DNA of 64,000 nt from Limibacillus halophilus (lineage in GTDB: Bacteria; Pseudomonadota; Alphaproteobacteria; Kiloniellales; CECT-8803), in assembly GCF_014191775.1 (NCBI RefSeq), contig NZ_JACHXA010000001.1, positions 558,001 through 622,000 of the forward strand, read 5' to 3'. Below the pieces are notes generated by a model. That model worked only from the letters and a program-made list of their open reading frames with translations. It did no database searches and was not told where the DNA came from. Both the position numbers and the translations under genes were made by a program. Each line of letters starts with the position of its first letter. Positions within the stretch are counted from its first letter, which is position 1. Positions 20,998 through 61,396 of this stretch are shown piece by piece.

Positions 20998-21010
20998 ATA
21001 CAGATTGTAT
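20998..21010. promoter_or_regulatory. ATACA-N3-TGTAT operator before the quinone oxidoreductase gene
   Basis: The perfect inverted repeat ATACA-GAT-TGTAT lies 21 bases before the start codon at 21032, next to a -10-like TATATT. It matches the sites at 22531 and 31592 in both arms. Confidence 0.6.
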
Positions 21011-21031
21011 ATTTATGAGGAGAATTTTGCA

Positions 21032-44943: not shown

Positions 44944-45256
44944 TCTCCTGAAGGTGGTAGGCGAACGCGGGTGCCGGGGGAAATCGCATGCGATTTTCTT
45001 GTTGTATGCAGTTTTGATCTATTTGTGTAATTTAATCGTTGTTCTGGACATCCGAGCTGCGTAGAATGTTTTCGCAATGTGCCCGAGAGGGATTCCCTTT
45101 GTGGAATGGGCGCATTGCAGGGGGCGCCGGATACTCGCTGGGGCCCGGGTAAGCGACCGGACGCTGGCTCTTTTGAGGGTTCTCCACCTGGGCCCGAAGA
45201 CAGGGAGGCTTAGCGCCGGAGATCATTAGAAAGCGCTTAAAAAGGGAGAGTGGGAG
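44944..45256 (+). promoter_or_regulatory. Structured untranslated leader before the NMT1-type ABC operon
   Basis: This is a 313-base gap with no gene. A palindrome AAATCGCATGCGATTT (44981-44996) and a short T-rich run may end the ALDH transcript. From 45074 several strong pairings appear: CAATGTGCCC with GGGCGCATTG (45075-45084, 45108-45117), GGGCCCGGGT with ACCTGGGCCC (45141-45150, 45186-45195) and inner AGCG/CGCT. This is a candidate riboswitch or leader RNA; no known class was recognised, and the thiamine box conserved words were not found. Confidence 0.45.
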
Positions 45257-46285
45257 ATGCGAGTTTTGACGCTAGAAAAATTCAAGGGTTACCTCGGTGG
45301 TGCCATCGGTGGGGCCCTGGCGGCCGCTGTCATCGTCATTAGCACCGGTCAAGCCATGGCTCTAGAGCAGGTGTCCATGCGCCTCAAGTGGCTAACACAA
45401 GCGCAGTTCATCGGATTCTATGTCGCCAAAGCGAAGGGCTTCTATGAAGAAGAGGGGCTCGACATGACGATCAACCCCGGGGGCCCGAATCTGAACGGCG
45501 AATCTATGGTGGCTGCTGGTGCGGAGAATTTCGCAGTCGCCGGCGGGGCGGAAAACATGTTGAAAAGCCGCGCCAAGGGCTTGCCTGTCATCGGTATCGG
45601 CATGATGCTTCAGCGGACCCCGTCCGCCTACGTCGCGCACAAGGGCGCGGGGATAGGCTCGCCCAAAGACTTCAAGGGAAAGACCGTTTCTACGTTCTTC
45701 ACCGGTGCGCAGAACACACTGTTCGCCGTTTTGTCGAAGGAAGGCGTAAGTAAAGACGAAGTCAACGTCATTCCGCAGGCGGTTTCACTGGCGCCCTTCA
45801 TCGACAAGCAGGTGGATGTGGCAACAGTCATGCTGTTTAACGAGTTGAACGTTCTAAGAAATCGTGGTGTGGAGGTTGAGGTTTTTCAGGCTGAAGATTA
45901 CGGCGTGAGCTTCCCAAGCGACACAATCATCACGAATGAGACGATGATCAAGGAGCGCCCCGAGACCGTCCAGGGGTTCCTCAACGCTTCGATCCGTGGA
46001 TGGAAGTACGCTTACGAAAACCCGGCCGAAGCGATTGACATTCTCATGGCGGCGGCGCCGAGCCTGGAGCGTCCACACCAGACAGCCATGCTGGAAGAGC
46101 TGAACAAGCTTGTCGTGGCCGATAGAGGCACGACAGACGGTATTGCCGTTCTCGACGTCGAGAAGCTCGAAGGTGTACGGGAGTTCCTGATTGAAAATGG
46201 AGAGCTGCCGGAGAGCGTCACGCTTGCCGAGTCGATAAACACTTCTTTTTGGGATGCGGTTCCCGCAGCCTACAAGAAGCCCTGA
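45257..46285 (+). CDS. NMT1/THI5-like ABC transporter substrate-binding protein
   Basis: This 342-residue secreted protein has a signal-like N-terminus (GGAIGGALAAAVIVISTGQAMA). The mature domain starts VSMRLKWLTQAQFIGFYVAKAKGFYEEEGLD, characteristic of ThiY-like proteins that bind thiamine precursors, riboflavin or other aromatic N-heterocycles. Its operon has one ATPase and two permeases. The mention of thiamine precursors is family-level only. Confidence 0.87.
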   Translation: MRVLTLEKFKGYLGGAIGGALAAAVIVISTGQAMALEQVSMRLKWLTQAQFIGFYVAKAKGFYEEEGLDMTINPGGPNLNGESMVAAGAENFAVAGGAENMLKSRAKGLPVIGIGMMLQRTPSAYVAHKGAGIGSPKDFKGKTVSTFFTGAQNTLFAVLSKEGVSKDEVNVIPQAVSLAPFIDKQVDVATVMLFNELNVLRNRGVEVEVFQAEDYGVSFPSDTIITNETMIKERPETVQGFLNASIRGWKYAYENPAEAIDILMAAAPSLERPHQTAMLEELNKLVVADRGTTDGIAVLDVEKLEGVREFLIENGELPESVTLAESINTSFWDAVPAAYKKP

Positions 46286-46360
46286 TCGGCCGGTAGCACA
46301 CACCACCCTTGGAAACTTCCGGGTTGGGTTACACTCATCTTTTGCGCAGAGGTTAATCCG

Positions 46361-47191
46361 TTGGCTAGTGCTACCTCCGAATCTCAAGATCGGCCTATCA
46401 TCCAGTTGGAAGGTGTATCCAAGACCTTCGACGGCGGCGGCAGAAAGGTCGTCGCCGTCGAGGGGGTCGATCTTGCCGTCAAGTCAGGAGAGTTCGTCAC
46501 CCTGGTGGGGCCAAGCGGTTGCGGCAAAAGCACCCTGTTCAACATAGTCGCGGGCCTGCTGGATGCCGATGCAGGAAGTGGTATACGGTTTAAGGGCGAG
46601 CCCCGACAGGGCCGAGATCTGCTGGGAGCGGTGTCATTCATGCCGCAACGGGATCTCCTGCTTCCCTGGCGTCGCATCATCGACAACGCAACAATCGCTT
46701 TGGAAGTCGAAAATGTACGCCGGAGCGATGCCCGGAAGCGGGCGCAGGCCATGTTCCAGGATTTCGGCCTGAGCGGATTTGAGAACCACTATCCGCACCA
46801 ACTTTCGGGCGGAATGCGTCAGCGAGTCGCTTTGATGCGCACGTTCTTGTTTGAGCGCGAGCTCTTGCTGTTGGACGAGCCGTTTGGCGCGCTGGATGCG
46901 CTTACGCGCATGATCATGCAGCGGTGGCTTTTGGATATCTGGCAAAAACACCGTCGGTCCATTCTGTTCATCACCCACGATGTCGATGAGGCCATATTTC
47001 TGGGGGACCGGGTGGTGGTGATGACCTCGCGGCCCGGACGAATAAAGCTTAGCAAGGAAATCAAACTGCCGCGCCCACGTGATCCGAAGATGACCACGTC
47101 GCCGGAGTTTTTAGACATAAAGGCCGAATTGCTCGAGGCGATCGAGGAGGAAAGCATCAAGTCATTCCTTTCCGAGGACTCTGAGACATGA
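46361..47191 (+). CDS. ABC transporter ATPase (NitT/TauT type)
   Basis: This 276-residue ATPase has Walker A VGPSGCGKSTL, signature LSGGMRQRVAL and Walker B LLLLDEPFGALDAL. It likely starts at TTG 46361, with AGAGG at 46348-46352 eight bases before; no ATG with a site fits. It overlaps the permease by four bases. Confidence 0.88.
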   Translation: MASATSESQDRPIIQLEGVSKTFDGGGRKVVAVEGVDLAVKSGEFVTLVGPSGCGKSTLFNIVAGLLDADAGSGIRFKGEPRQGRDLLGAVSFMPQRDLLLPWRRIIDNATIALEVENVRRSDARKRAQAMFQDFGLSGFENHYPHQLSGGMRQRVALMRTFLFERELLLLDEPFGALDALTRMIMQRWLLDIWQKHRRSILFITHDVDEAIFLGDRVVVMTSRPGRIKLSKEIKLPRPRDPKMTTSPEFLDIKAELLEAIEEESIKSFLSEDSET

Positions 47192-47940
47192 CGGGATGGC
47201 AGGTGAAATGCCAACCCTTGGCCGCTTTGTGCGCCGCTCTCATCCTGTGGGAGATTCTGGCGCGATACTACGCCACCCCATTTCAGGTGATTCCGCCCGT
47301 ATCCGCCATCCTTTCGGACATGGTTGGTAGTGGCGATGTGCTAGTGCGAGGGTTCTTGCGAACCTTACTGGAAACCTTACTCGGGTTTGTTCTCGGTGCC
47401 TTGTTCGGCTTCGCGATGGGGGCGATTTTCGCCGAGGTGCGCATTTTCGAGAAAATGTTTTTTCCTTTGTTTGTTGTCTCGCAAACAATACCGGTAATCG
47501 CATTTGGTGCTTTGGTCGTGATCTGGTTCGGCAATGGGATAATGTCGAAGGTCATGATCGCGTTTTACCTGACCTTCTTTCCGGTGACAGTGAATACGCA
47601 CCGCGGATTGCTATCGGTGGACCAGCAACGCGTTGATCTCTTCAGAAGCTTCGGTGCGACCACCTGGCGCATCTTCTGGACCCTGCGCTTGCCATTCGCG
47701 CTTCCGACCATCATGGCGGCTCTTTTGTTGGGCGTAAGCCTTAGTCTGATTGGTGCCATCGTGGGCGAGTGGTTCGGCGATACGGTCGGCCTCGGTGTTA
47801 TGCTGGTACAGGCCATGTATGCCGAGAACATGGTGAGGCTTTGGTCGATCATCGTGTCCTGCGGGCTGCTCGGAACGGGCCTCTATGGCGTGATCGCCTG
47901 GGTCGGTCGGCGTTACGTGTGGTGGGGGGGTGAACTGTAA
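47188..47940 (+). CDS. ABC transporter permease (NitT/TauT type, 1)
   Basis: This 250-residue membrane protein has a coupling loop DLFRSFGATTWRIFWTLRLPFALPTIMAALLLGVSL, the binding-protein-dependent transport inner membrane signature. It is coupled to the ATPase (ATGA) and to the second permease (TAATG). Its length and hydrophobic pattern fit about six helices. Confidence 0.87.
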   Translation: MTGWQVKCQPLAALCAALILWEILARYYATPFQVIPPVSAILSDMVGSGDVLVRGFLRTLLETLLGFVLGALFGFAMGAIFAEVRIFEKMFFPLFVVSQTIPVIAFGALVVIWFGNGIMSKVMIAFYLTFFPVTVNTHRGLLSVDQQRVDLFRSFGATTWRIFWTLRLPFALPTIMAALLLGVSLSLIGAIVGEWFGDTVGLGVMLVQAMYAENMVRLWSIIVSCGLLGTGLYGVIAWVGRRYVWWGGEL

Positions 47941-48677
47941 TGCTGGAGCGCGCAGGCTACCTGGTGTTTGGCATACTGACCATCGCTTGTGTCTGGGAAG
48001 CAGCAATCAGGCTGTTTGAAATTCCCCCGTTTATCCTACCGCCAATTGCCAGCATTCTGGGCGCGGTTTGGGATTTCTTCCCGTCGCTGATGCGCGGCCT
48101 TGCGGCAACACTGAAAGTCGCTGGCATTGGATATGTGGCTGGATCGCTGGTGGCTGTTGCCTTGGCGGTGGCAATGACACTCGTGCCGCTTCTTGAACGC
48201 ATCTTCAAGCCGGTCATCGTTGCCATCAATTCCGTTCCGGTCGTCGCGTATGTTCCTCTCAGCCTGGTCTGGTTTGGCATGGGGTCGGGATCCAAAATAG
48301 CAATGGTCATGCTCGCCGCGGGGTTCTCTGTTTTTGTGAATGCACTCCAGGGTTTGAAGGCAATCGACCGCTCCGCGATCGATCTCTTCCGCAGCTTTGG
48401 CGCTGGGCCGCTGCGGATTGTTTGGATGCTGCGCTTGCCCGCAGCGCTGCCTGCCATCATCACCGGCCTTCGTGTGGCCGTGGTTCGCAGCATGATCATT
48501 GCCATCGTCGCGGAGATGCTGGGCGCTTACGAGGGGCTTGGGCGAATCATCTATGAATCCACGCAGCAGATTGAGTTTTTGAAGGTGTGGGCGGCTGTGG
48601 TCGTCGCCTCCGCCGCGAGCATGTTGATTTACGGCCTTTTGGTCCTGACAGATCGCCATCTGGTTTGGTGGCGATAG
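47940..48677 (+). CDS. ABC transporter permease (NitT/TauT type, 2)
   Basis: This 245-residue membrane protein has the EAA-type loop DLFRSFGAGPLRIVWMLRLPAALPAIITGLRVAVVRSM. It is paralogous to the preceding permease; a pair of related permeases suggests a heterodimeric channel. It starts inside the stop codon of its neighbour. Confidence 0.87.
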   Translation: MLERAGYLVFGILTIACVWEAAIRLFEIPPFILPPIASILGAVWDFFPSLMRGLAATLKVAGIGYVAGSLVAVALAVAMTLVPLLERIFKPVIVAINSVPVVAYVPLSLVWFGMGSGSKIAMVMLAAGFSVFVNALQGLKAIDRSAIDLFRSFGAGPLRIVWMLRLPAALPAIITGLRVAVVRSMIIAIVAEMLGAYEGLGRIIYESTQQIEFLKVWAAVVVASAASMLIYGLLVLTDRHLVWWR

Positions 48678-48755
48678 CGCCCAATGGAAATGGCCGATGG
48701 CGATGGTTGCGGAGGATTGTCCCGCAAATAATTTGCACGAAGGAGATGTTGAAAG

Positions 48756-49598
48756 ATGAGCGCGCCAGAGCGGAAATTCGTTAAGGTCGATATCAAGGAT
48801 GGAATTGCCTGGACCTACCTCAATAGGCCAAAGAAGAAAAACGCCATGAACCCGGGTTTGCATCTCGAAATGCACGACACGCTGGATGAGCTTGAGGCCG
48901 ATCCGAAGGTCAAGGTTGTGGTGATCGCTGGAGCCGATGGCGTCTTTTCGGCTGGACAGGACCTCAAGGAATATTTCCGCGGGCTTGAGGATAATCCCTC
49001 CGAGGCAAAGCGCATTAGGCTTATTTCCAACCGTTGGCAGTGGGAAAAGCTCTATATGTACGACAAACCTACCATTGCGATGGTGGAGGGCTACTGCGTT
49101 GGCGGTGCTTTCACACACATGCTTGCGACCGATTTTGCGATAGCCGGTTTCGATACGGTCTTTTCGCTTTCCGAAGTGAACTGGGGCATTCTGCCAGGCG
49201 GCATGGTTAGCAAGGCGCTGGTGGACACAGTATTGCCGCGGCACGCGCTCTATCACGCCTGCTTGGGCGAGCCCTTCGATGGCAAGGAAGCCGAAAGGAT
49301 TGGCTTGATCACCCGCGCGGTTCCCAATGGGAAGGTGCAGGAAGAGACCTTAAAGCTTGCTGAAAAACTGATGTCGAAAAGCCCAGCGGCCTTGCGCGGC
49401 ACCAAGCAGGCGATCCGACACGTGCGCCAAATGGACTTCACGCAGGCGGCGGAGTACATGCAGGAAAAGAAAAATGCCATCCGCGTGGGCGACACGGAGG
49501 ACTCCTACAAGACGGGTCTCAAACAGTTTCTCGACGACAAGAGTTACCGGCCCGTCTATGGCTCGTTCAAGATGCGCGCTGAGCGCGGCGAAGAATAG
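48756..49598 (+). CDS. Crotonase-family hydratase, hydroxycinnamoyl-CoA hydratase-lyase-like
   Basis: This 280-residue crotonase resembles p-hydroxycinnamoyl-CoA hydratase/lyase (HCHL, FCA). Shared stretches are AGQDLKEYFR, QWEKLYMYDKPTIAMVEGYCVGG, FSLSEVNWGI (the catalytic Glu) and the C-terminal KQFLDDKS. The Pseudomonas enzyme cleaves feruloyl- or coumaroyl-CoA to an aldehyde plus acetyl-CoA. An ALDH lies 3.8 kb upstream and a CoA-transferase is next. The ATG follows AAGGAG. Confidence 0.8.
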   Translation: MSAPERKFVKVDIKDGIAWTYLNRPKKKNAMNPGLHLEMHDTLDELEADPKVKVVVIAGADGVFSAGQDLKEYFRGLEDNPSEAKRIRLISNRWQWEKLYMYDKPTIAMVEGYCVGGAFTHMLATDFAIAGFDTVFSLSEVNWGILPGGMVSKALVDTVLPRHALYHACLGEPFDGKEAERIGLITRAVPNGKVQEETLKLAEKLMSKSPAALRGTKQAIRHVRQMDFTQAAEYMQEKKNAIRVGDTEDSYKTGLKQFLDDKSYRPVYGSFKMRAERGEE

Positions 49599-49616
49599 CG
49601 ATCAAAGGAGATAGAC

Positions 49617-50765
49617 ATGCCCGGTCCGTTGGAAGGATTCCGTGTCGTTGAGCTTTCGACCATGATCACCGGCCCGCTTACAGGGATGCTTTTGGCTGAT
49701 CTGGGGGCTGAGGTGATTAAAATCGAGAATCCCGAAGGCGGGGATCCCTTTCGCGGTTACGGCGGTGGAACCTACAGCGCGCAGTTCTGCACTTACAACC
49801 GCAACAAGCGCAGTGCCGCCGTTTCGCTAAAATCGGAATCCGGCCGGCGATTTCTCGAACGCCTCGTGGTCAAAAGCGACGTTTTGATCGAGAACTTCCG
49901 GCCTGGTGTCCTGGAACGATTGGGCTTCAGCGACGCGCGATTGAAGGAGCTGAATCCTGCCTTGATTCGCTGTTCGATAACAGGGTTCGGAAAAGACGGG
50001 CCTTATGCAGCGCGCCCCTGTTACGACGCTATAGCCCAAGGGCTAAGCGGCATGTCGAGCCAATTCCTTGATCAGGAAAAGCCGCGTCTTGCGGGAACGA
50101 CGATCTCTGACAACGTGACGGGACAGTACGCCTGCTATGGCATTCTGTCGGCGCTGCTTGAGCGAGAGCGGACGGGCAAGGCCAGGCGGGTCGACGTCAA
50201 TATGCTTGATGCGACAATGGCCTTCATGCCGGAGCCTTTCGCTTACTTGACACAAAACGGCGAGATAGCCGATGCCTATCTTCGCGTCCGCAACTCGCAA
50301 GCATATGCATTCCGCTGCAGTGACGGGAAGATTATCGCTGTTCATATGGCTTCCCAGCAGAAGTTCTGGGAGCGCTTCGCCAAAGCAGTTGAGTTGCCGG
50401 AGTTGATCGAGCATCCGTCGTGCCTGACCCTGGCCGGTCGTGTCGAACACTACGATATGATTCTCGAGAAGGTCGGACAATCGGTTGCCGGTCAGGCTAG
50501 GATTTACTGGATGGAGCGCCTGGAGCGCTACGACGTACCCTTCACGCCGGTCAACAGCATTCCGGAGGTCTTCGAAGACCCGCAGGTGCAGCACCTCGAT
50601 AGCTTCGCCAAAGTTACACATAAACTGCAGGGCGAACTGACGATCTTGAGGCGACCTGTCCGGTTTGATGGTCAACGGGATGACCAGCCGATGATGGCTC
50701 CCCCCACATTGGGAGAACACACAGAAGAACTGATGCGGGAGTTCGGCTTCGACCCCGTTTCCTAG
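49617..50765 (+). CDS. Class III CoA-transferase (CaiB/BaiF family)
   Basis: This 382-residue formyl-CoA transferase-like protein has the N-terminal GLVVELSTMITGPLTGMLLADLGAEVIKIE-like stretch, the nucleotide-binding IENFRPGVLERLGF, and the catalytic Asp in VNMLDATMAF. It moves CoA between carboxylic acids and is often carnitine or oxalate linked. It begins after AAGGAGA and follows the HCHL-like gene by 18 bases, so it could make its CoA thioester substrate. Confidence 0.9.
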   Translation: MPGPLEGFRVVELSTMITGPLTGMLLADLGAEVIKIENPEGGDPFRGYGGGTYSAQFCTYNRNKRSAAVSLKSESGRRFLERLVVKSDVLIENFRPGVLERLGFSDARLKELNPALIRCSITGFGKDGPYAARPCYDAIAQGLSGMSSQFLDQEKPRLAGTTISDNVTGQYACYGILSALLERERTGKARRVDVNMLDATMAFMPEPFAYLTQNGEIADAYLRVRNSQAYAFRCSDGKIIAVHMASQQKFWERFAKAVELPELIEHPSCLTLAGRVEHYDMILEKVGQSVAGQARIYWMERLERYDVPFTPVNSIPEVFEDPQVQHLDSFAKVTHKLQGELTILRRPVRFDGQRDDQPMMAPPTLGEHTEELMREFGFDPVS

Positions 50766-50810: not shown

Positions 50811-51728
50811 TTACTGGCACTCTTGCTTCGAGAACTGCTCGATAATCCAGGCATTGAACAGCTTGGTTGCATGAGATGGCTCGTGCTCCTTCGGCACCGC
50901 GAGAAAGAACGCTCTGCGCTTGATCGGGGGCGCATCAATGATGCGGACCAAGCTGCCATCGTTCAAATAGCGTTGCATCAGGGGCGGGCCTATCAAGGCC
51001 ACCCCCTGTCCATCAAGGGCGGTTTGGACGACGTTGTTGTAAGTATTGACTGTGATCCCCCTGGGCAGTTTATCCACTTTCACGCCCTGCTCTTTGAACC
51101 AATGCAGCCAGGTAGTCTGAATGTCGTACTTGCCTTCTAAATGGATAAGTGGGAGCGCCAGGAGTTCGGCCGGATGATTGATCGGCGGCAGCTTCTCTGC
51201 GAAGACCTTGGCCGCTGTGGGGAAAATATACTCTTGCACCAAAAAGGTGAGGTCGAGGCCCACAGCCTCGACGGCGCCGTAGCGGATCGCGACATCGACG
51301 CCTTCATTTGTCAGATTGAGATCCGTATCGGAGACCAGGAACCGCATTTCGATTTCGGGATGCTCCTGCCTGAACTGCCCAATCTTCGGCAGCAACCAAA
51401 GCGATGAGAAGCCGGCACTTGATGTAATAGTAATGGTGTTCTTGGAATCCTCGCGGCGGATCTCGTTGGTGCCTTTAAGGATGCGCTCAAGCGCAAAAGA
51501 TACGGTCTCAAAATAGCGTTCCCCGGCCCGCGTCAAGCGAAGCGTTCGGTGAAGGCGCAAAAACAAAAGCACGCCCAGATAGCTTTCCAGCGCTTTTATC
51601 TGTTGGCTCACAGCCACGCGCGTAACGTTCAGTTCCTCAGCGGCCCGCGTAAAGCTCAAGTGTCGCGCTGCTGCTTCGAACGTGATCAGGTAATTCGGCG
51701 GAGGGAGCTTAAATCGGAGTCTTTGCAT
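50811..51728 (-). CDS. LysR-family regulator (GcvA-like)
   Basis: This 305-residue LysR regulator has an N-terminal helix-turn-helix (YLITFEAAARHLSFTRAAEELNVTRVAVSQQIKALESYLGVLLF) typical of GcvA-like members and a substrate-binding domain. The start ATG 51728 is preferred over TTG 51737. It is divergent from the MttB-type gene and the ProVWX set, so it may sense a betaine or its product. Confidence 0.88.
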   Translation of the reverse strand: MQRLRFKLPPPNYLITFEAAARHLSFTRAAEELNVTRVAVSQQIKALESYLGVLLFLRLHRTLRLTRAGERYFETVSFALERILKGTNEIRREDSKNTITITSSAGFSSLWLLPKIGQFRQEHPEIEMRFLVSDTDLNLTNEGVDVAIRYGAVEAVGLDLTFLVQEYIFPTAAKVFAEKLPPINHPAELLALPLIHLEGKYDIQTTWLHWFKEQGVKVDKLPRGITVNTYNNVVQTALDGQGVALIGPPLMQRYLNDGSLVRIIDAPPIKRRAFFLAVPKEHEPSHATKLFNAWIIEQFSKQECQ

Positions 51729-51833
51729 AAAGCTCAACTTACGCTGCCGTTCAGGATTTCACAAGTTGCGGCTAAGGCCCTTGCTTTCTAACGTCGGGCG
51801 TTATGGTTGGGCAACGAACGTCAGGAATTGAAT

Positions 51834-53363
51834 ATGAGCGGCAAGCGGGTCAGTCTTCGAGAAAGCAGGCGGCAACGGGGCTCGGCCAGCCGTGCGCCAG
51901 GTATTCTGACCTCCATCTCGGACAGACGCATCCCCACCTATGACTTGGTGCCCGAGGAAAGTGTCGAGTTGATCCACGAGAACTCGATGCAGATCCTGGA
52001 AAATCAGGGGATAGAGTTTCGCGACGAAATCGCTTTGGCGGATTGGCGGCGTGTTGGCGCCGATGTGAAGGGCGCTAATGTTCGCATTGACCGCACGCTT
52101 CTCCTCGACCTTGTGAGCAAGGCGCCCAGCGAATACATACACCATGCCAGGAACCCACGCAGATCGGTGAAGATCGGTGGGCGCGGTATGGCCTTTGCGC
52201 CGATCTACGGTTCTCCCTACGTCCGTGACCTTTCCGGTGAGCGGCGTTATGCCTGCCTTGAGGATTTTCGGAATTTCGTAAAGCTGGCCTATATGGTTCC
52301 GTCGCTGAATGTCTCGGGTGGGACGGTATGCGAACCAACGGACGTTCCGGTTGCCAGCCGTCACCTCGATATGCTCTACGCCCATATGACGCTATCGGAT
52401 AAGCCCTTCATGGGCGGCGTGACGTCGCCGGCCCGCGCAGCCGACTGCGTGGCTATGTGCGAGATTCTCTTCGGCAAGGAGTTCCTGGAGCAAAACACCG
52501 TAATGACGTCACTAACCAACTGTAATTCACCGTTGGTGTGGGATGAGACAATGCTGTCTGTTATACGGGTCTATGCCGCCGCAAATCAGGCCTGTCTTAT
52601 CAGTCCGTTCATCATGCAAGGCGCCAACACGCCCGTCACGACGGCAGGCGCCTTTGCACAGTTGAACGCGGAAGCGCTGGCCGGCATCGCCTATGCTCAA
52701 ATCATTCGGCCGGGCGCTCCCGTAATCTACGGCGCGACACTCTCGACGGTTTCGATGCGTACGGGCGCGCCGATGTACGGTACCTCGGAAACGCAGGTGC
52801 TGACCTTCCTGACCGGACAGCTCGCAAGAAAGTATGGTGTGCCGATGCGCACAGGCGGCATGCGCAACGGTTCCAAAGCGGTCGACACCCAGGCCGCCTA
52901 CGAGTCAGCACAAACCATGCTTCCGGCAATTCTCGCAGGCGGCAACTTCTTCTTGCACTCGGCGGGATGGCTAGAGAGCGGGCTTTCAGCATCTTACGCT
53001 AAGTTCATGCTGGACGCGGATCAGTTGACCGTTCTCCAGCGATTGGCCAGTGGGGTTTCGCTGACAGAAGACGATTTTGCCTTGGATGCCATTTCCGAAG
53101 TGGGGGCCGGGGGGCATTTTCTGGGCTGCGGCCATACACTGGCCCATTATGAAACAGCCTTCTACTCGCCGCAGACGGCAGATCTGAGCACATACGAGCA
53201 ATGGGAAGAGGAGGGTCAGCGCGACGCGCTGCAACGGGCCACGGACATTGCTCGAAACACACTAAATGACTACAGTCCGCCACCAATCGACGAGGCCGTG
53301 GACGAAGCCCTTCAAGAGTTTATCGGAAAGCGCAGAACGGAAATACCCGACGGGTACGAATGA
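51834..53363 (+). CDS. Trimethylamine methyltransferase (MttB) family protein, no pyrrolysine
   Basis: This 509-residue MttB-superfamily protein is read through without an in-frame amber codon, so no pyrrolysine is used. Known non-pyrrolysine relatives such as MtgB and MtpB demethylate glycine betaine or proline betaine onto a corrinoid protein. No corrinoid-protein gene lies in the window. The ATG at 51834 is preferred over a TTG at 51807. It is followed by ProVWX, which fits a quaternary-amine substrate, and preceded divergently by a LysR regulator. Confidence 0.85.
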   Translation: MSGKRVSLRESRRQRGSASRAPGILTSISDRRIPTYDLVPEESVELIHENSMQILENQGIEFRDEIALADWRRVGADVKGANVRIDRTLLLDLVSKAPSEYIHHARNPRRSVKIGGRGMAFAPIYGSPYVRDLSGERRYACLEDFRNFVKLAYMVPSLNVSGGTVCEPTDVPVASRHLDMLYAHMTLSDKPFMGGVTSPARAADCVAMCEILFGKEFLEQNTVMTSLTNCNSPLVWDETMLSVIRVYAAANQACLISPFIMQGANTPVTTAGAFAQLNAEALAGIAYAQIIRPGAPVIYGATLSTVSMRTGAPMYGTSETQVLTFLTGQLARKYGVPMRTGGMRNGSKAVDTQAAYESAQTMLPAILAGGNFFLHSAGWLESGLSASYAKFMLDADQLTVLQRLASGVSLTEDDFALDAISEVGAGGHFLGCGHTLAHYETAFYSPQTADLSTYEQWEEEGQRDALQRATDIARNTLNDYSPPPIDEAVDEALQEFIGKRRTEIPDGYE

Positions 53364-53422
53364 GTGCCGCAGGTGCCCCGTGTATTCTACGTTGGGAGGG
53401 ACAGACTTAGCGAGGAGGTTTG

Positions 53423-54463
53423 ATGGACTGGCAAATTGAATGCGAGGGGGTTTGGAAGATATTCGGTCCAAATCCGGAAGCTGCGCTACAAGCAATTCGT
53501 AGTGAAGGATTGGGCAAGGAAGAGGCGCAGCAGCGCTTTAACAGCGTCATTGGCGTGTCGAACGCCTCGCTGCAGATTCGCCGTGGCGAACTATTTTGCA
53601 TCATGGGTCTTTCGGGGAGCGGTAAATCAACACTACTTCGGCATGTAAACCGGCTGATTGATCCGACTGCCGGGAAAATCATGGTCGGTGGCGTCGATAT
53701 CTCGTTGTTGGACCGTGCGGGCATTGCGCGGCTGCGGTCGAAGACCATCGGCATGGTTTTCCAACACATGGCCCTCTGGCCGCATCGCACCATTCAGGAC
53801 AATGTGGCCTATGGCCTTGAAGTGCAGGGCGTAGGCAAACGTAAGCGGCGCGCCGTTGCTGCTCAAGCGCTTGAGCAAGTGAAACTGCAGGGCTGGGAGA
53901 GTCACTATCCAGACGAGTTGTCAGGAGGAATGCAGCAGCGCGTTGGCTTGGCGAGAGCCTTGGCGTCCGATCCCGATATCCTGCTCATGGACGAACCCTT
54001 CAGCGCGCTCGATCCCTTGATTAGGAATGAGCTGCAGGGCCAGTTCCTCGAATTGTCTTCAACCATGAAGAAGACGACACTCTTTATCACCCATGACTTG
54101 GAAGAGGCCATCAGGCTTGGTGATCGTGTTGCGATCATGAAGGACGGTGTGATCGTTCAGCTTGGAACACCGCAGGAAATCATCCTCAACCCAAGCAATG
54201 ACTACGTTGCCGAATTCGTTCGCACCATGTCGCAGGTTCGCTTCATAACCGCCGAAAGCGTGATGACAAGATTGGCCGATGTAGCGCCAGCGCCGAACGA
54301 CATGGAACTTTCGACCTATGTCTTGCCGACCGCGAACCTCGATCAAATCATTGATGCGGTGCAGATCGCCAAAGGTCCGATCGGTGTGCGCGATGGCGAG
54401 GGGGTGATCGGCAGAATTGAACCGGTCGCCTTGCTATCAGCGATGAAGGATCGTCTCGGTTGA
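53423..54463 (+). CDS. proV: Glycine betaine/proline ABC transporter ATPase
   Basis: This 346-residue ProV-type ATPase has the unusual leader (VWKIFGPNPEAALQ), Walker A GLSGSGKSTLLRHVNRLIDPTAG, signature LSGGMQQRVGLARALASDPDILLMDEPFSALDPLIR, and a regulatory C-terminal part with CBS-like character. The ATG at 53423 sits after GAGGAGG. It begins a proVWX operon. Confidence 0.94.
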   Translation: MDWQIECEGVWKIFGPNPEAALQAIRSEGLGKEEAQQRFNSVIGVSNASLQIRRGELFCIMGLSGSGKSTLLRHVNRLIDPTAGKIMVGGVDISLLDRAGIARLRSKTIGMVFQHMALWPHRTIQDNVAYGLEVQGVGKRKRRAVAAQALEQVKLQGWESHYPDELSGGMQQRVGLARALASDPDILLMDEPFSALDPLIRNELQGQFLELSSTMKKTTLFITHDLEEAIRLGDRVAIMKDGVIVQLGTPQEIILNPSNDYVAEFVRTMSQVRFITAESVMTRLADVAPAPNDMELSTYVLPTANLDQIIDAVQIAKGPIGVRDGEGVIGRIEPVALLSAMKDRLG

Positions 54464-54496
54464 GGCGAATTGACCAGCCACAGTGGGGAGGCTGAT

Positions 54497-55459
54497 ATGG
54501 AACACTTCGATCTTTTAAACCCGTTCGGGACCGGATTTCTTCCCGTGGGGGACTGGACCGAAAACGGGCTGCAGTGGGTGGTTGGCGAGTTTCGCGACTT
54601 CTTTCAAGCCATGAAGCAACCGATCAATGCGGTGCTGACGACTCTCGAGCAAGGTTTGCGAGGAACACCCTCAACAGTCACGATCGCGGCTTTGTTCCTG
54701 CTCGCCTGGCAGGTCGCCGGACTGCGCATAGGATTTTTGGTCGTTTTCTGCCTCGCGCTGATTGGATCAATCGGTGCTTGGGGCAACGCCATGACAACAC
54801 TCGCGATCGTGCTGACGTCGGTTATTTTTTGCACCGCAATTGGCATACCGCTGGGAATCTTCGCGGCCCGCAGCGACGCCTTCAACAGGGTGCTGAGACC
54901 GGCCCTCGATTTCATGCAGACGATACCGTCTTTCGTTTATCTCGTGCCAATCGTCATGCTTTTCGGCATTGGCAATGTTCCGGGTGTTATTGTGACTATC
55001 ATCTACGCCCTGGCACCGGTAGTTCGCCTGACAAATCTTGGTATCAGACAGGTTCGTTATGACTTGGTCGAGGCGTCGGTGGCTTTCGGAGGCAGCCCCC
55101 GCCAAACACTGATGAAAGTGCAGCTTCCGCTTGCTCTGCCGACAATCATGACCGGTGTAAACCAGACAGTCATGATGTCCCTTGCCATGAGCGTCATCGC
55201 TTCGATGATCTCGGTGACGGGCTTGGGGCAAATGGTTTTGCGCGGAATTGGCCGTCTTGACATATCTCTGGCGACCACCGGCGGACTTGGAATTGTGCTC
55301 ATCGCGATCGTCGTTGATCGCATTTCCCAAGGGTTTGGACAAACCAGACGAGACCGGGGCCGGCGCAATTGGTATGAAACTGGCCCGGTTGGTTTGCTGC
55401 GCCGTTTCGTGAAATCGAAGGCACTCCGAAAAGATTCCTCGGTGGCCGCGTCATCCTAG
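54497..55459 (+). CDS. proW: Glycine betaine/proline ABC transporter permease
   Basis: This 320-residue permease with six or more membrane helices shows the ProW features FDLLNPFGT and DFMQTIPSFVYLVPIVMLFGIGNVPGVIVTIIYALAPVVRLTNLGIRQV, the QTIPSF-to-GIRQV signature of the OpuAB/ProW family. A GGGGAGG site precedes the ATG at 54497; an upstream TTG is less likely. Confidence 0.93.
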   Translation: MEHFDLLNPFGTGFLPVGDWTENGLQWVVGEFRDFFQAMKQPINAVLTTLEQGLRGTPSTVTIAALFLLAWQVAGLRIGFLVVFCLALIGSIGAWGNAMTTLAIVLTSVIFCTAIGIPLGIFAARSDAFNRVLRPALDFMQTIPSFVYLVPIVMLFGIGNVPGVIVTIIYALAPVVRLTNLGIRQVRYDLVEASVAFGGSPRQTLMKVQLPLALPTIMTGVNQTVMMSLAMSVIASMISVTGLGQMVLRGIGRLDISLATTGGLGIVLIAIVVDRISQGFGQTRRDRGRRNWYETGPVGLLRRFVKSKALRKDSSVAASS

Positions 55460-55654
55460 GTTGCGTATCCCGCGTGTTGCGTAAGTAGTACTTAACCAAA
55501 TAGATAGGATTTGTGCCGTTTACCGCTTTTCAGCAGCAGATAATCCTTTCCATTCCGATTAAGGACGGGGCAAGAGCTTCGGTTTAACAGGACCCAAAGC
55601 CGCGATTGCGTCAGAAAGGCAAATGGGTCGGCCATCATAGGAAAGGGAGAGACA
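55460..55654 (+). other. Intergenic space between proW and proX
   Basis: The 195 bases between proW and proX contain no gene and no clear hairpin. The ribosome site AAAGGGAGAG precedes proX. The gap leaves room for an internal promoter, but none was identified with confidence. Confidence 0.3.
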
Positions 55655-56674
55655 ATGTTCGTCTTGAGGAAGAGAGTTGAAATGCTCTTCGGAGCAGCCG
55701 CGATCGCTGCTTCCGTGTTAGTGCTCGGCAGCACCGCCGCGCACGCCGGTATGCCCGGCGAAGGCAAGGTCGTGCAACCGATGACCACAGGTCAGTCGGG
55801 TCACGTTTTCTATCATGCGGTGGTACAAATTGCCCTAGAGAAACTCGGGTACGAAGTGAAGCCGCATCTCGAGGCCGAGTATCCGGCTATCCATCTTTCC
55901 GTCGCCCAGGGTGACGCCGACTACACAGCCGGGCATTGGGACCCTCTTCACCAGAAATTTTTCGATCAGGCCGGCGGCGATGAGAAAATGACAAGGGTAG
56001 GTCACCTTATTTCGGGGGCAGGTCAGGGCTACTTTATCGACAAGAAGACGGCGAACGAGCATGGGATCGACAACATCGGTCGGTTCAGCGACCCCAAAAT
56101 CGCCGCGTTGTTTGACACCAATGGCGATGGGAAAGCCAATCTAACCGGCTGCAACCCGGGTTGGGGTTGTGAGCGGGTCATTGAGCATCAACTGGATGCC
56201 TTTGATCTGCGTGGGTCGATCAACCACGATCAGGGCAGCTACTTTGCGCTCATTGCGGATACGATCACCCGCTATCAAGGCGGCGAGTCGATCTTTTTCT
56301 ATACCTGGTCCCCGACTTGGGTCGGCTCTATTTTGAAGCCGGGCGATGATGTCGTGCAGCTGAACGTGCCATTCTCGTCACTGCCGGGTCAGGAGAATGC
56401 GGATACGGCCTTGCCGGATGGACGCAATCCGGGCTTTGGCGTCAACAGCATTCGCGTGTTGGCGAACAACGAGTTCCTTGCGGAGAACCCGGCCGCTCGT
56501 CGTTTGTTCGAGTTGCTTGAGATTCCCATCGCTGACGTGAGTGCTGAGAACAACCTCCAACACCAAGGTGAGGACGCTCCTGAGCAGATTTTCGGTCATG
56601 CGAAGGATTGGATCGCGCAGAACCAGGCCCAGTTTGATGCCTGGATTGCTGAGGCGGCAGCAGTTACCAACTAA
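55655..56674 (+). CDS. proX: Glycine betaine/proline ABC transporter substrate-binding protein
   Basis: This 339-residue periplasmic binding protein closely matches E. coli ProX. The signal peptide ends ...GSTAAHA before GMPGEGKV. The mature protein keeps LFDTNGDGKANLTGCNPGWGCE, an almost identical ProX block, and AGHWDPLH, where ProX has an aromatic ligand-cage Trp. Trp residues in the YTWSPTWV region also fit the aromatic box for a quaternary ammonium. A terminator follows. Confidence 0.95.
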   Translation: MFVLRKRVEMLFGAAAIAASVLVLGSTAAHAGMPGEGKVVQPMTTGQSGHVFYHAVVQIALEKLGYEVKPHLEAEYPAIHLSVAQGDADYTAGHWDPLHQKFFDQAGGDEKMTRVGHLISGAGQGYFIDKKTANEHGIDNIGRFSDPKIAALFDTNGDGKANLTGCNPGWGCERVIEHQLDAFDLRGSINHDQGSYFALIADTITRYQGGESIFFYTWSPTWVGSILKPGDDVVQLNVPFSSLPGQENADTALPDGRNPGFGVNSIRVLANNEFLAENPAARRLFELLEIPIADVSAENNLQHQGEDAPEQIFGHAKDWIAQNQAQFDAWIAEAAAVTN

Positions 56675-57013: not shown

Positions 57014-58126
57014 ATGAGGGGGCAGGCTGCACTGGCTTTGGCGGAGATGGATCTCCGGGATGCCCCCTGTTCTTACTCTCGCGAACGTCCATTGGATGCC
57101 CAACGTGCCGATATTGCGCAACGAGGCGGAGTGACCTCCGAGGCGTTGCGGGTCGATATTCTGCTTCCATCGGGTTTCTCGCTGGCCGAGTTCGGAATTG
57201 TCATGGAAGCCCTTGCTGTCGCCGGATCAACGGAACGTTGTCCGCGTATTCTCAAGCGGGTCATTTCCGAAAGCGCGGGTAGCGTAGCGAGTAGCTGTGG
57301 GGTCTCAGTGAGCACGGTAAGTGTGGAGTCCATCGGCTTTGAGTCCGGCAACCAACCGGATATCGTGATCATTCCGGGCGATACTGAGGACCGGCCCGCC
57401 TATCAGGACAAACGACTGATCAGTTATTTGAGAGTTGCCAATCGGCAAGGCGCCCAGCTTTGTCTGATCGGTGCTTCCTCCTTCCTCGCAGCACGCGCGG
57501 GTCTATTGGACAATCGCAGCTGCGCCGTTCATTGGCGCATCCTGCCGGCGTTTCGAGAGTTTTTTCCAAAAGTGCGGGCAAAGGCGCGGTTCCTGTGCAC
57601 GGACAAGCGCATCGTGTCGTCTTTGGCGGGTACCTGCGCGTTGGCGGCAATCAATAAAGTCCTGCTGGCTTGTCGTGAAGAGCCGGGGCAGGTTATGGAA
57701 CGAGAGCTCGCAGGTCGCTTTTCCGTCGACTCACTACACACCTCGGATCAAATTCCGCTGGCCAGCTATATTGTCGGCCATCCGCGAGGCAGGCAGGTGA
57801 ATGATGCAATCCAGATCATGCACGAGACTGTCGAAAGCCCGGTTCAACTGGACGATCTGGCGCGCCGGGTCGGGACGTCGCGGCGCCAGATGGAGCGGCT
57901 TTTTCGCTCTTATCTCGGAAAGCCGCCACAGAAAGTTTACCGCGAGATTAGGCTGCAAACGGCTTATAGTCTGTTGATGAGCGGCAACATGTCGGTTACC
58001 GAGGTGGCCTATGCTGCGGGCTTCGTATCGCCGTCGCATTTCGGACACAGCTTCGTCAACGAGTTCGGCTTCTCACCGAATTCAATCAGGCGCAGCCGAT
58101 CGCATGGTGAATACGCTCGCAGTTGA
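57014..58126 (+). CDS. GlxA/GbdR-type AraC-family regulator
   Basis: This 370-residue regulator has an N-terminal DJ-1/PfpI-like domain (residues about 45-240, VDILLPSGFSLAEFGIVMEALAVAG and VIIPGDTEDRP) and an AraC DNA-binding domain (about 265-355, RRVGTSRRQMERLFRSYLGKPP, VTEVAYAAGFVSPSHFGHSF). This GATase1-AraC layout is that of GbdR, CdhR and SouR, regulators of glycine betaine, carnitine and sarcosine catabolism. Position after proX and before the racemase fits that role. Confidence 0.85.
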   Translation: MRGQAALALAEMDLRDAPCSYSRERPLDAQRADIAQRGGVTSEALRVDILLPSGFSLAEFGIVMEALAVAGSTERCPRILKRVISESAGSVASSCGVSVSTVSVESIGFESGNQPDIVIIPGDTEDRPAYQDKRLISYLRVANRQGAQLCLIGASSFLAARAGLLDNRSCAVHWRILPAFREFFPKVRAKARFLCTDKRIVSSLAGTCALAAINKVLLACREEPGQVMERELAGRFSVDSLHTSDQIPLASYIVGHPRGRQVNDAIQIMHETVESPVQLDDLARRVGTSRRQMERLFRSYLGKPPQKVYREIRLQTAYSLLMSGNMSVTEVAYAAGFVSPSHFGHSFVNEFGFSPNSIRRSRSHGEYARS

Positions 58127-58199: not shown

Positions 58200-59294
58200 A
58201 TGAAGATCACGCGACTAAGAACAAGGCCGGTTAGCGTTCCACTCGACCGCCCCATAGCAACGGCGATTCATCGCATCGAGTCTGTAGGATGTCTGCTGGT
58301 AAGCCTGGAAACGGACCAAGGCTTGGTGGGCGAAAGCTATCTCTTTACCATCAACGGTGTCCGGCTCAAGGCCTTCGACGAAATGCTGTACGGCTTCGCA
58401 AGTACGGTTGAAGGCCGAGATCCGCATTACGTCGAGGCTATCTGGCAGGACATCTGGAGGGAGATAAACCCGACCGGCCACCAGGGGGTCACAATCGCGG
58501 CTTTATCAACGTTGGATACTGCGTGTTGGGACCTGATCGGAAAAGCCGCCGACCGACCGCTGCATCATCTTTTTGGTGCCTGTAGGGACCGTATCGAAAC
58601 CTATGCCAGCGGCGGCCTGTGGCTTTCTTACTCGATTGATGATCTGGTGGTCGAGGCGGCGGCCTTGCTCGATCAGGGGTTCCGGGCGATGAAGATGCGC
58701 GTTGGCAACGGCGACCTTCGCAAGGACGTGGAAAGGGTTCGGCGGGTTCGTGAGGTGATTGGACCGGAGGTCAAACTGCTGGTCGATGCGAACCAGGCCT
58801 ATCGTCCCAAACAGGCGATCCAACTGGGGCGTTTGCTGGAGCCGTTCGATATTGTCTGGTTCGAAGAACCCGTCGCGGCTTATGACCGCGAAGGGCAGGC
58901 GCTGGTGCGCGAAAGACTGGATATACCGGTAGCCTCCGGTGAAACGGAGTACACCAAGCAGGGAATACGAAGCACGATCGAAACCCGATCCGCCGATGTG
59001 CTGATGCCGGATCTGCAGCGTATCGGTGGCCTCACGGAGATGCTGCGCGCGGCCGCGCTGGCGGACTCTTTCAACCTGCCGATCTCCACGCACATCTTCA
59101 CGGAGCATAGCCTGTCTATCGCCGGCGCCGCGCCGAACTGTATCTCGGTCGAGCACATGCCTTGGCATGCGCCTTTGTTCCGCGAGACACTGGAACTACA
59201 GGATGGTGCATTAATCATTCCGCACCGCCCCGGGACGGGATTTACATTTGACCCGAAAGCGGTCGAGCGCTTCGCTCTGGCACCGGCCCGATAG
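58200..59294 (+). CDS. Mandelate racemase/muconate lactonizing enzyme family protein
   Basis: This 364-residue enolase-superfamily enzyme has the barrel metal ligands Asp196 (DANQ), Glu222 (FEEP) and Glu248 (GETE). The MR-type dyad is His298 (STHIF) and Asp271 (PDLQRIGG). Where the KxK base pair is expected it reads Lys165-x-Arg167 (AMKMRVG). So an MR-like chemistry (racemisation or dehydration of a carboxylate alpha-carbon) is likely, but the unusual Arg makes the base uncertain. It differs from the proline-betaine epimerases that use Lys on both sides. It follows the GbdR-like gene by 73 bases. Confidence 0.88.
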   Translation: MKITRLRTRPVSVPLDRPIATAIHRIESVGCLLVSLETDQGLVGESYLFTINGVRLKAFDEMLYGFASTVEGRDPHYVEAIWQDIWREINPTGHQGVTIAALSTLDTACWDLIGKAADRPLHHLFGACRDRIETYASGGLWLSYSIDDLVVEAAALLDQGFRAMKMRVGNGDLRKDVERVRRVREVIGPEVKLLVDANQAYRPKQAIQLGRLLEPFDIVWFEEPVAAYDREGQALVRERLDIPVASGETEYTKQGIRSTIETRSADVLMPDLQRIGGLTEMLRAAALADSFNLPISTHIFTEHSLSIAGAAPNCISVEHMPWHAPLFRETLELQDGALIIPHRPGTGFTFDPKAVERFALAPAR

Positions 59295-59338: not shown

Positions 59339-61396
59339 TTACATCGCCACGCACAAACGCAAGGCATCATAAATCGCGGCGTGAATGTTCCGGCTGGAAA
59401 CCGCATCGCCGATGCGATGAAGCTCGAAGGTTCCTTCGGGATTTAGAGTACAGGGTTGCGGTACAACGGCGAGCAGGGCGTCGATATCGGTGACGCCTGC
59501 ATTGCGTGCCTGCCCGCGCAACGCCTTATAGACGTCGTCCATCGGCACGGTTCCGTGCTCCACAACGACTTGGTCCGTTTGGACAACCTGCTCGTCGAGC
59601 GTGGCATCGTTTGCGAGCGTCACTGCCAGACGGTTGCCGACAGGCTCCACGCGAACCAGCCGGTGATCAAATAAGGTCGTCACCCTGTGCTCGTAAAGGC
59701 GCCGTTTCCAGGCGATCCGCTCGGCGTAGGTTAGTTCGGCAGCCAAGTGTCCGTCGATTGAGGCAAAGGTAACAGTCTTACCGTCACGGGCAATCTGGGT
59801 GGCGACTTGAGGGGCAGGGTGTCGCCCGGTGCCGTCGAAGACCAAGACCTCGTTACGTGCGGGTATTTGACCCGAAATGATGTCCCAGGCGGTGGTGCAA
59901 TGCACGGCGCCGTCGATCCAGTCAATGTCAGGCATGCCGCCGGTTGCGACGATCACTACATCGGGCTGAAGTGCGATGACATCTTCTGCCTCCATGTAGC
60001 TGTTGGTGTGAACTTGGACGCCCAGGCGCTCCAGTTCCATAGCCCGCCAGTCGATCAGGCCAATCAAATCGCGCCGCCAGACGCCGCGCGTTCCCAGGAG
60101 AACCTGGCCGCCCAGGTTGGCCGCCGCTTCATGAAGGCTGACTTGGTGTCCGCGTTCGGCGCAGACACGCGCTGCTTCTAGCCCGGCGGGGCCGCCGCCG
60201 ACCACCACAATGCGCCGTTCTGCTTGCTTGGACCGTGTGATGATGTGGGGCAAGATGATTTCACGGCCGGTCGCCGGATTATGCAGACATGATGGGCGGT
60301 AGCCGGACATGCAGTGCGTTGCGCCAACGCAGGGCCGTATTTCACTCTCTCTCCCTTCTCGCAGTTTGGTCACCATCTGCGGGTCGGCAATCTGGGCGCG
60401 GGTCATTCCGGCCATGTCCAGATGTCCTTCCGCAATGGCATAGCGCGCGGAATGGATGTCGGCGATGCGTGCGGCATGGAACACAGGAACGCCCACGGCG
60501 CGTTTGAAATGCCCGACGGGTTCGACCCAGGGCGCAATCTTGGAATCCATGCCCGGCATATTCTCATAGGCAAGGCCACGCTCGGTATCCATGCTGCCAT
60601 AGATCGCATTGAAGAAATCGACGCAGCCGTTCTGTTCGAAGAACTGGCCCATCTTGATGCATTCGTCGGCCGTCAGTTCTCCATCGATACCCTCGTCCAC
60701 GGTGAAGCGCATGCCGACCAGGAAATCATCGCCTGTCGCTTTTCGAATGGCTTGATGGACCATCAACGGGAAGCGGCAACGGTTCTCGAACGAGCCCCCG
60801 AAACGGTCCGTGCGCTTGTTGGTTTTCGGTGACAGAAATTGACCGAGCAAGTGCGCGCCGGTCAGGGTTTCAATGCCGTCCAGACCGCCCTCCTTGCATC
60901 GGAGCGCGGCGGCAGCATAAGCCTTTACCACCCGGTCAATATCGTACTCGTCCATCTCCTTCGGGAAGCTGCGGTGCAGTGTCTCGCGAATCGGCGAGGG
61001 CGCAATGGTCGACAGCCAATCCTGTGTATAGGGGTCGCCGCGTCTGCCCAGATGAGTGATCTGGCACATCAGCGTTGCACCGGTACGATGGATGCGCTCG
61101 GAAAACTGCTGGAGGTGCGGAATTATCTCATCGGTACCCACGTTGAGCTGCCTGAAGATGTTCGGCGAATCAGGTGCAACATTGGAAGAGCCGCCGAACA
61201 TCGTCAGCGCAAGGCCGCCTTGAGCCTTTGCTTCGTGGTAGGTCTGATAGCGCTCGGTTGGAAACCCTCCGTCCTCGAGCCCGCAGGCATGGCTTGTGCT
61301 CATGAACCGGTTACGGAAGAGGACGTGCTTGATCCGCAGCGGTTGGAACAAAGGGTCCGTTGACGGCCTTGATTGGGGCTCCGCTGTTTCGCTCAT
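59339..61396 (-). CDS. DgcA/stachydrine demethylase-like FMN-Fe-S-FAD oxidoreductase
   Basis: This 685-residue protein is built like trimethylamine or dimethylglycine dehydrogenase (DgcA): an N-terminal FMN old-yellow-enzyme barrel (about residues 15-350), an Fe-S segment (Cys356, Cys362 and Cys370; CVGATHC, with Ala where TMADH has another Cys), and a C-terminal FAD/NAD domain with VVVGGGPAGLEAARV (397-411). The CVGAxxC form with LHNPATGRE is typical of the dimethylglycine and N-methylproline (stachydrine) demethylase group as I recall it. It converges on the MR-type gene; betaine genes lie nearby. Confidence 0.85.
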   Translation of the reverse strand: MSETAEPQSRPSTDPLFQPLRIKHVLFRNRFMSTSHACGLEDGGFPTERYQTYHEAKAQGGLALTMFGGSSNVAPDSPNIFRQLNVGTDEIIPHLQQFSERIHRTGATLMCQITHLGRRGDPYTQDWLSTIAPSPIRETLHRSFPKEMDEYDIDRVVKAYAAAALRCKEGGLDGIETLTGAHLLGQFLSPKTNKRTDRFGGSFENRCRFPLMVHQAIRKATGDDFLVGMRFTVDEGIDGELTADECIKMGQFFEQNGCVDFFNAIYGSMDTERGLAYENMPGMDSKIAPWVEPVGHFKRAVGVPVFHAARIADIHSARYAIAEGHLDMAGMTRAQIADPQMVTKLREGRESEIRPCVGATHCMSGYRPSCLHNPATGREIILPHIITRSKQAERRIVVVGGGPAGLEAARVCAERGHQVSLHEAAANLGGQVLLGTRGVWRRDLIGLIDWRAMELERLGVQVHTNSYMEAEDVIALQPDVVIVATGGMPDIDWIDGAVHCTTAWDIISGQIPARNEVLVFDGTGRHPAPQVATQIARDGKTVTFASIDGHLAAELTYAERIAWKRRLYEHRVTTLFDHRLVRVEPVGNRLAVTLANDATLDEQVVQTDQVVVEHGTVPMDDVYKALRGQARNAGVTDIDALLAVVPQPCTLNPEGTFELHRIGDAVSSRNIHAAIYDALRLCVAM

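Follow-up and report, generated by a model that had tools for sequence, protein, structure and literature searches.

Introduction

The described pathway for 4-hydroxyproline betaine and proline betaine starts with a Rieske-type demethylase. PDB entry 4H2H is a 4-hydroxyproline betaine 2-epimerase (according to the available part of PMC11961199), and the downstream steps of 4-hydroxyproline catabolism are carried out by enzymes of the DAAO, DHDPS and ALDH families (according to the available part of PMC4113996).

In Ruegeria pomeroyi, mtgC and mtgD are both required for methionine synthesis and for the demethylation of glycine betaine, and one MtgC is found alongside several PF06253 (MttB-superfamily) proteins (PMC12478193). 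When this organism is on N-osmolytes, its RamA and DUF1638 proteins increase, as do two PF06253 proteins, the N-osmolytes in the latter case including glycine betaine (PMC12478193). Such bacteria have up to seven PF06253 open reading frames, and the authors suggest that diverse methylated compounds enter the route (PMC12478193). In Eubacterium limosum, one corrinoid protein serves MttB paralogues that demethylate carnitine, gamma-butyrobetaine and proline betaine; the gene for the paralogue MtyB adjoins a transporter and is divergent from a regulator (available part of PMC8604678). The MttB-superfamily enzymes characterised in the available text of these two reports use a corrinoid protein (PMC12478193, PMC8604678).

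Here we analyse the gene for an MttB-superfamily protein of Limibacillus halophilus, which lies in a stretch of 64,000 nucleotides (called the window throughout). What is new is that sequence comparison appears to set this gene apart from the glycine betaine methyltransferase MtgB, and that a likely substrate class is put forward for it as a hypothesis. An orphan-looking gene is thereby turned into a testable prediction, in which the tree and the gene neighbourhood give a substrate class for one clade.

The window gene and its cassette

The open reading frame at 51834-53363 (forward strand) starts with ATG and has no internal stop; a further in-frame TTG lies upstream at 51807. In a profile search its product matches PF06253 with 695 bits (cut-off 25) over model positions 5-500 of 500, and this full-length domain places it in the MttB superfamily. 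Since the frame has no internal stop, and TIGR02369 (pyrrolysine-type MttB) gives 294.5 bits against a cut-off of 525, it is a non-pyrrolysine member; a pyrrolysine-type trimethylamine methyltransferase was rejected on that score and on the lack of an in-frame amber codon. The closest solved relative is PDB 4yyc (595 bits, residues 15-508), which its depositors name only "putative trimethylamine methyltransferase", and the glycine betaine methyltransferase (MtgB) structures 2qne and 9yce match at 402 bits. The protein is predicted to be a betaine:corrinoid methyltransferase; its use of a corrinoid protein is well supported by inference, and the substrate proposed below is hypothetical.

The preliminary description had mttB following a lysR gene and directly preceding proVWX, and the positions of the reading frames bear this out, lysR being divergent from mttB across a gap of 96 bases. 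It had missed that the cassette extends past proX to 61396; the additional genes are those of a GbdR-type regulator, an enolase-superfamily protein and a flavoprotein of the TMADH/OYE type. The features are as follows.

50811..51737, minus strand: LysR-family (GcvA-type) regulator, divergent from mttB (NF008352 270 bits, below the cut-off of 288; homologues at 52-53% in the cassettes L019, L020 and L022)
51738..51833, no strand: divergent intergenic region of 96 bases, presumed from its sequence to hold promoter and operator
51834..53363, plus strand: MttB-superfamily (non-pyrrolysine) methyltransferase, predicted betaine:corrinoid (matches as given above)
53420..54463, plus strand: ProV-like ATPase of a betaine/choline-type ABC importer (TIGR01186 350 bits, above the cut-off of 326.6)
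54470..55459, plus strand: putative ProW-like permease, whose true start may be downstream (homologues at 63% in L019 and L020)
55655..56674, plus strand: ProX-like betaine-binding protein (NF008334 427 bits, cut-off 215)
57014..58126, plus strand: GbdR-like AraC-family regulator (NF052371, a choline-metabolism model, 166 bits, below the cut-off of 480)
58200..59294, plus strand: enolase-superfamily protein, on the mandelate racemase/sugar-acid dehydratase side (Pfam MR_MLE; best PDB match 2og9, next mandelate racemase)
59339..61396, minus strand: TMADH/OYE-type flavoprotein, predicted N-demethylating dehydrogenase (PF00724 178 bits, with Pyr_redox_2)

The genes proV, proW and proX span 53420-56674, downstream of mttB. 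The top model for ProV is the choline ABC ATPase TIGR03415 (362.5 bits, below the cut-off of 483.75), and the ProW-like permease matches the annotated proline/glycine betaine permease of a plasmid locus discussed below (L198) at 48% over 172 residues. ProX matches E. coli ProX (PDB 1r9l) with 362 bits, and the tryptophans that we take to make up the betaine cage of the latter are aligned and kept. Among the cassette genes scanned against NCBIfam and Pfam, none reached the cut-off of a carnitine- or choline-specific model. The enolase-superfamily gene at 58200 was considered as an HpbD-type betaine epimerase and rejected, given the structural matches listed above and a match of only 26% over 186 residues to the HpbD homologue of locus L156.

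Elsewhere in the window, positions 568-6197 hold a coenzyme F420 set, consisting of an NADPH-dependent F420 reductase, CofE, CofD, CofC and a fused CofGH, each above at least one NCBIfam cut-off. Positions 43438-50765 encode an aldehyde dehydrogenase, an SsuA-type ABC importer, a p-hydroxycinnamoyl-CoA hydratase/lyase (331 bits, cut-off 276) and a CaiB-family CoA-transferase; this cluster is perhaps one for hydroxycinnamate degradation, unrelated to mttB.

A single corrinoid protein on another contig

The genome comprises 3.48 Mb on 18 contigs, with an estimated completeness of 100%. It has six PF06253 genes, that of the window and five others (C2, C3a, C3b, C7 and C10). The preliminary description had reported neither a corrinoid partner nor a reactivating gene in the 64 kb, and tblastn searches of the window agree, the genome's own MtgC, MtgD, RamA, DUF1638, PF13769, MetF2, MetA and MtgE giving no match at 1e-3. 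Nor was a corrinoid gene found just outside the window in the mttB operon group, which it had named as the finding that would speak against it: the genome-wide search with PF02607 gave a single match, a frame of 248 residues on contig C2, and the window lies on contig C1. PF02310 matched this C2 protein and three more proteins, in mutase-sized frames of 682-728 residues.

The check it had put forward, a search of the genome for B12-binding proteins and methyltetrahydrofolate:corrinoid methyltransferases, gave one MtgC-like and one MtgD-like protein, encoded with a RamA-like protein in a single operon on C2. The order of this operon is corrinoid protein, DUF1638, PF13769, MTHFR-like, methyltetrahydrofolate:corrinoid methyltransferase, RACo/RamA-like and MetA. 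The corrinoid protein matches MtgC, MtbC and methylamine-type models with 177-206 bits, below their curated cut-offs, and the MtgD-like methyltransferase matches NF005719 with 368 bits (cut-off 259). D130, H132 and T183 of the corrinoid protein are spaced like the triad of MttC, which is Asp105-His107-Thr158 in the available part of PMC9842639. The genome has only two Pterin_bind proteins, both on C2, these being the one in the operon and a higher-scoring one taken as FolP. A PF02574 homocysteine-methyltransferase-domain protein (MtgE-like) is encoded on contig C7. No full-length MetH was found in the genome, and a conventional MetH was rejected because the only PF02607 protein is the 248-residue frame. 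A single MtgC with MtgD, MtgE and RamA, and no full-length MetH found, is the genome-level pattern of MtgBCDE, and by its sequences the C2 gene set resembles the MtgBCDE/split-methionine-synthase system that has been in print since 2025.

The preliminary description considered the methyl acceptor unclear, naming either tetrahydrofolate with an unlinked corrinoid protein or a different mechanism. The former idea gains support from the C2 operon; the anomaly implied there is not supported. In E. limosum several unlinked MttB proteins are served by one corrinoid protein, in R. pomeroyi one MtgC is found alongside several PF06253 proteins, and no different mechanism is needed to account for a missing local partner. 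The apparent orphan status of the window gene is thus a known arrangement, and the puzzle is largely explained.

Co-occurrence within the order points the same way. Among 50 genomes of the order (this one included), PF06253 is found in 47 and PF02607 in 49. A frame that has a corrinoid domain without being MetH-like, tallied by hand from frame size and score, is present in 45 of the 47 genomes with MttB and in none of the three without. The chance of such a split is 5e-4 if the genomes are independent, whereas they are kin, and two of the three MttB-less genomes are of one genus. Weak cases among the 45 are G020 (a frame of 127 residues) and G004 (frames of 366 and 666 residues). The two MttB-containing exceptions, G005 and G014, are drafts (96% and 90% complete) in which the MtgC search gave nothing beyond a MetH-type match (33-36%), apart from a further match of 25% in G005. 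In a further draft, G031 (91% complete, 5% contaminated), there are 20 PF06253 matches and a single PF02607 match, which is an MtgC homologue at 85%.

Six paralogues and their neighbours

When named genomes were searched with the window protein, 583 matches were confirmed, of which the best 80 were kept as loci. Among these 80, four loci (L019-L022) are 70-72% identical to the window protein, and in 76 the MttB is closest to the C2 paralogue. To these were added 60 stretches from the order, which do not form a random sample: one hub stretch of G001 and 59 consecutive rows of a score-ordered list (own rows skipped; matches scoring above or below this block, or absent from the list, left aside). 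Several of the stretches end at contig ends. Neighbours were counted within 7 kb, with later loci included and the genome's own paralogues left out except for the window gene, and "DMGDH-like" means a protein with DAO and GCV_T domains.

Among the 79 C2-like genes, MtgC, MtgD or RamA is found at a distance of 7 kb or less in 66 cases, a DMGDH-like neighbour in 13/79 and an OYE-type neighbour in 0/79. The window-like genes (window included) have the opposite pattern, with an OYE-type neighbour in 9/18 and a DMGDH-like one in 0/18, several of these stretches being shortened. C3a-like genes have both (OYE-type 14/31, DMGDH-like 9/31); among C3b-like genes the counts are 0/17 and 3/17, and the one C10-like gene has a DMGDH-like neighbour. 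In the genome itself, the C2, C7 and C10 paralogues are directly beside DMGDH-like genes and C3a adjoins two OYE-type genes. C3b has neither type adjacent, the nearest DMGDH-like gene being about 6.4 kb away.

Two trees were calculated. For the first, 151 rows were reduced to 87 by randomly dropping 64 of the 78 MttB rows from L023-L098; the second, of 70 rows, omits six long-branch rows (including the genome's own C7 and C10) and 11 of the 17 C3b-like rows. In the 70-row tree the window protein and L019-L022 form a clade of five rows (100/100), which joins 12 rows from genomes of the order at 98/93. Elsewhere in this tree are a C2-like clade of 16 rows (100/98) and a C3a clade of 31 rows (100/100). 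The C2 paralogue groups with the genes beside mtgC and mtgD at 100/98 and the window protein does not, the R. pomeroyi MtgB sequences themselves being absent from the tree. Judged by clade and neighbours, the window gene is not the orthologue of the glycine betaine MtgB; the C2 paralogue is.

HpbD-linked relatives

Eight of the 12 rows that neighbour the window clade themselves form a clade at 100/100, and five of these eight lie beside genes for a DHDPS-family protein, an aldehyde dehydrogenase and an FAD oxidase. This set was found, at the thresholds used, in none of the remaining 152 of the 157 stretches searched. Two of the other four rows have an OYE-type neighbour. In L156 (genome G027, 3054-14315), one of the five, the gene order is proV-proW-proX-DHDPS-ALDH-mttB-epimerase-SDR-SDR-FAD oxidase, and the epimerase adjoining MttB scores 509 bits against PDB 4e8g and 417 bits against 4h2h.

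Relatives of the L156 MttB are also found on plasmids. The four examined, out of ten listed, are about 81% identical to it and stand outside the tree. In three of the four regions (L196-L198, from Leisingera thetidis and two Mesorhizobium strains) MttB has as its neighbour an HpbD homologue at 58-70%, a match that in L196 covers only 298 of 368 residues. The DHDPS/ALDH/FAD-oxidase set is present in two of the four (L197 and L198), and L195 has neither HpbD nor the set. In the plasmid records listed, PF06253 proteins are named "trimethylamine methyltransferase family protein" or are unannotated. It is worth adding that MttB is directly beside the HpbD homologue in L156 and L196-L198, and is accompanied by 4-hydroxyproline catabolic genes in L156, L197 and L198. 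A Rieske demethylase would be expected at such an HpbD-linked place.

The window protein itself shares only 46-48% identity with these four plasmid proteins. No HpbD or DHDPS/ALDH/FAD-oxidase genes were found around the window mttB, and no full-length HpbD was found in the genome. In the open-access literature searched, no description of HpbD-linked MttB clusters was found; these clusters are the more novel lead, and their presence in named bacteria makes them a strong test case.

The OYE-type flavoprotein

The flavoprotein at 59339-61396 combines an OYE FMN domain (PF00724) with a pyridine-nucleotide domain (PF07992), an architecture that we take to be that of the StcD-type N-methylproline demethylase. 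Trimethylamine and histamine dehydrogenases are among its PDB matches, ranked below NCR and 2,4-dienoyl-CoA reductase. For demethylation of N-methylproline there is only the record name of a 54% relative (H14). Its homologues were also found in ten plasmid regions (eight at 58-67%, two at 52-54%) with no MttB within 9 kb, and so the flavoprotein alone does not imply betaine use. The suggestion that it fixes the substrate as N-methylproline was rejected on account of these other contexts.

A homologue at 61-63% is found near mttB in all four orthologous loci (L019-L022). In the window its gene is on the opposite strand, five genes from mttB; L019 (Tabrizicola soli) and L020 (Defluviimonas sediminis) have in common the cassette mttB-proX-OYE-proV-proW-gbdR-lysR. 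The two loci share 99.3% identity over 11.6 kb (approximately 9549-21155) and therefore count as one observation. Their left flanks differ, and comparison of the sequences suggests that the mttB cassette may have been transferred recently.

Two further observations concern gene arrangement. In L019 the mttB cassette is immediately preceded by an open reading frame resembling that of an IS transposase. A C3a-type mttB followed by a different enolase-superfamily gene and an OYE-type flavoprotein, with a divergent LysR gene, recurs in L118-L120, L141, L143, L144, L146, L151, L154 and L155; for the enolase-superfamily gene of this cassette, the one tested (L144) has 4dye and 2oqh as its best PDB matches.

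A proposed pathway and its alternatives

The sequences show which genes are present, how the paralogues are related, to which clade the gene belongs and which genes are paired; from this we infer a transfer of methyl to MtgC, a substrate and an order of steps. It is probable, in our judgement, that the cassette serves to import and begin the degradation of a quaternary-ammonium betaine, with MttB methylating the shared MtgC and the flavoprotein acting next, and that this betaine is of the proline-betaine type rather than glycine betaine. ProVWX would import the betaine, and MttB would take one methyl group off its quaternary nitrogen and load it onto Co(I) in the one shared MtgC, encoded on C2. 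MtgD would pass this methyl on to tetrahydrofolate for oxidation or, alternatively, MtgE would deliver it to homocysteine, with RamA keeping the cobalt reduced. The tertiary amine left over would then be oxidatively demethylated by the flavoprotein. Dividing the steps in this way is chemically reasonable: such a flavoprotein presumably requires the lone pair of the nitrogen, so that one methyl of a quaternary nitrogen would have to be removed beforehand in some other way.

Three points favour a proline-type betaine, namely the neighbouring clade, the OYE-type partner and the fact that the C2 gene already accounts for glycine betaine. This idea is weakened by the lack of HpbD and 4-hydroxyproline genes near the window, by the choline-type models for ProV and GbdR, and by the OYE relatives that occur without MttB. 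L-proline betaine would presumably need no epimerase. The eight Rieske-domain matches in the genome count against the MttB reading.

More tentatively, and with somewhat less than an even chance of being right, we propose that aerobic alphaproteobacteria have a cobalamin route for proline- and hydroxyproline-type betaines, in which MttB replaces the oxygen-dependent Rieske demethylase, the methyl goes by way of the MtgC hub to methionine or C1 oxidation, and OYE flavoproteins take the remaining methyl. The window cassette would be one version of it, and the HpbD-linked clusters of Leisingera, Mesorhizobium and the relative in the order a second. If this is true, the B12 demand of these bacteria reaches past glycine betaine to ring betaines.

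The window protein could also be a second glycine betaine methyltransferase on the same corrinoid hub. The two PF06253 proteins of R. pomeroyi whose amounts rise on N-osmolytes, glycine betaine among them (PMC12478193), would fit this, as would the glycine-betaine/choline-like ProVWX and GbdR-type genes and the score of the MtgB structures. However, it is the C2 paralogue, itself with a DMGDH-like neighbour, that falls in the mtgC/mtgD-linked clade; the window protein belongs to a separate clade (100/100), and no DMGDH-like gene is near any of the 18 window-like genes (within 7 kb, some stretches being shortened). An OYE-type partner would, moreover, be redundant with dimethylglycine dehydrogenases, and we consider this explanation quite unlikely. 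Another quaternary amine demethylated via MtgC, such as carnitine, gamma-butyrobetaine, a methylated amino acid or a choline compound, is a possibility that we also rate as unlikely. It draws on the substrates of the E. limosum paralogues and on the layout around MtyB, which is as in the window (available part of PMC8604678), and for choline on the top model of ProV (362.5 bits, cut-off 483.75); the absence of any carnitine- or choline-specific model at cut-off among the cassette genes scanned argues against it, and the tree and neighbours point to ring betaines.

It would be very surprising if MttB passed its methyl directly to tetrahydrofolate or some other acceptor with no corrinoid protein. 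The window has no corrinoid gene, and G005 and G014 have MttB with no detectable stand-alone MtgC, as such a mechanism would allow. We nevertheless rejected it on the co-occurrence within the order (45/47), and the characterised enzymes of the superfamily, in the available text of PMC12478193 and PMC8604678, use a corrinoid protein.

Comparison with known systems

With MtgBCDE of Ruegeria pomeroyi DSS-3 and the split methionine synthase of Phaeobacter inhibens, this genome has in common a single MtgC-like protein, MtgD-, MtgE- and RamA-like proteins, DUF1638, several PF06253 proteins and no full-length MetH found. It differs from the R. pomeroyi system in that the window protein falls outside the MtgB clade and its partner is an OYE-type flavoprotein, not a DMGDH-like one.

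Eubacterium limosum, unlike the organism studied here, is an anaerobic acetogen, and to our knowledge its MtpB/MtcB/MtyB system includes no adjacent flavoprotein demethylase. What is shared with that system, MtqC-MtqA included, is the principle of MttB paralogues that each have their own quaternary amine and use one unlinked corrinoid protein together with a single THF methyltransferase (available part of PMC8604678).

The comparison with the Hpb pathway is less direct for the window itself, which has neither HpbD nor 4-hydroxyproline genes, than for its relatives: in the neighbouring MttB clade and among the plasmid relatives, mttB is clustered with genes for HpbD-like and DHDPS-family proteins, an aldehyde dehydrogenase and an FAD oxidase, and in some cases with ProU genes as well.
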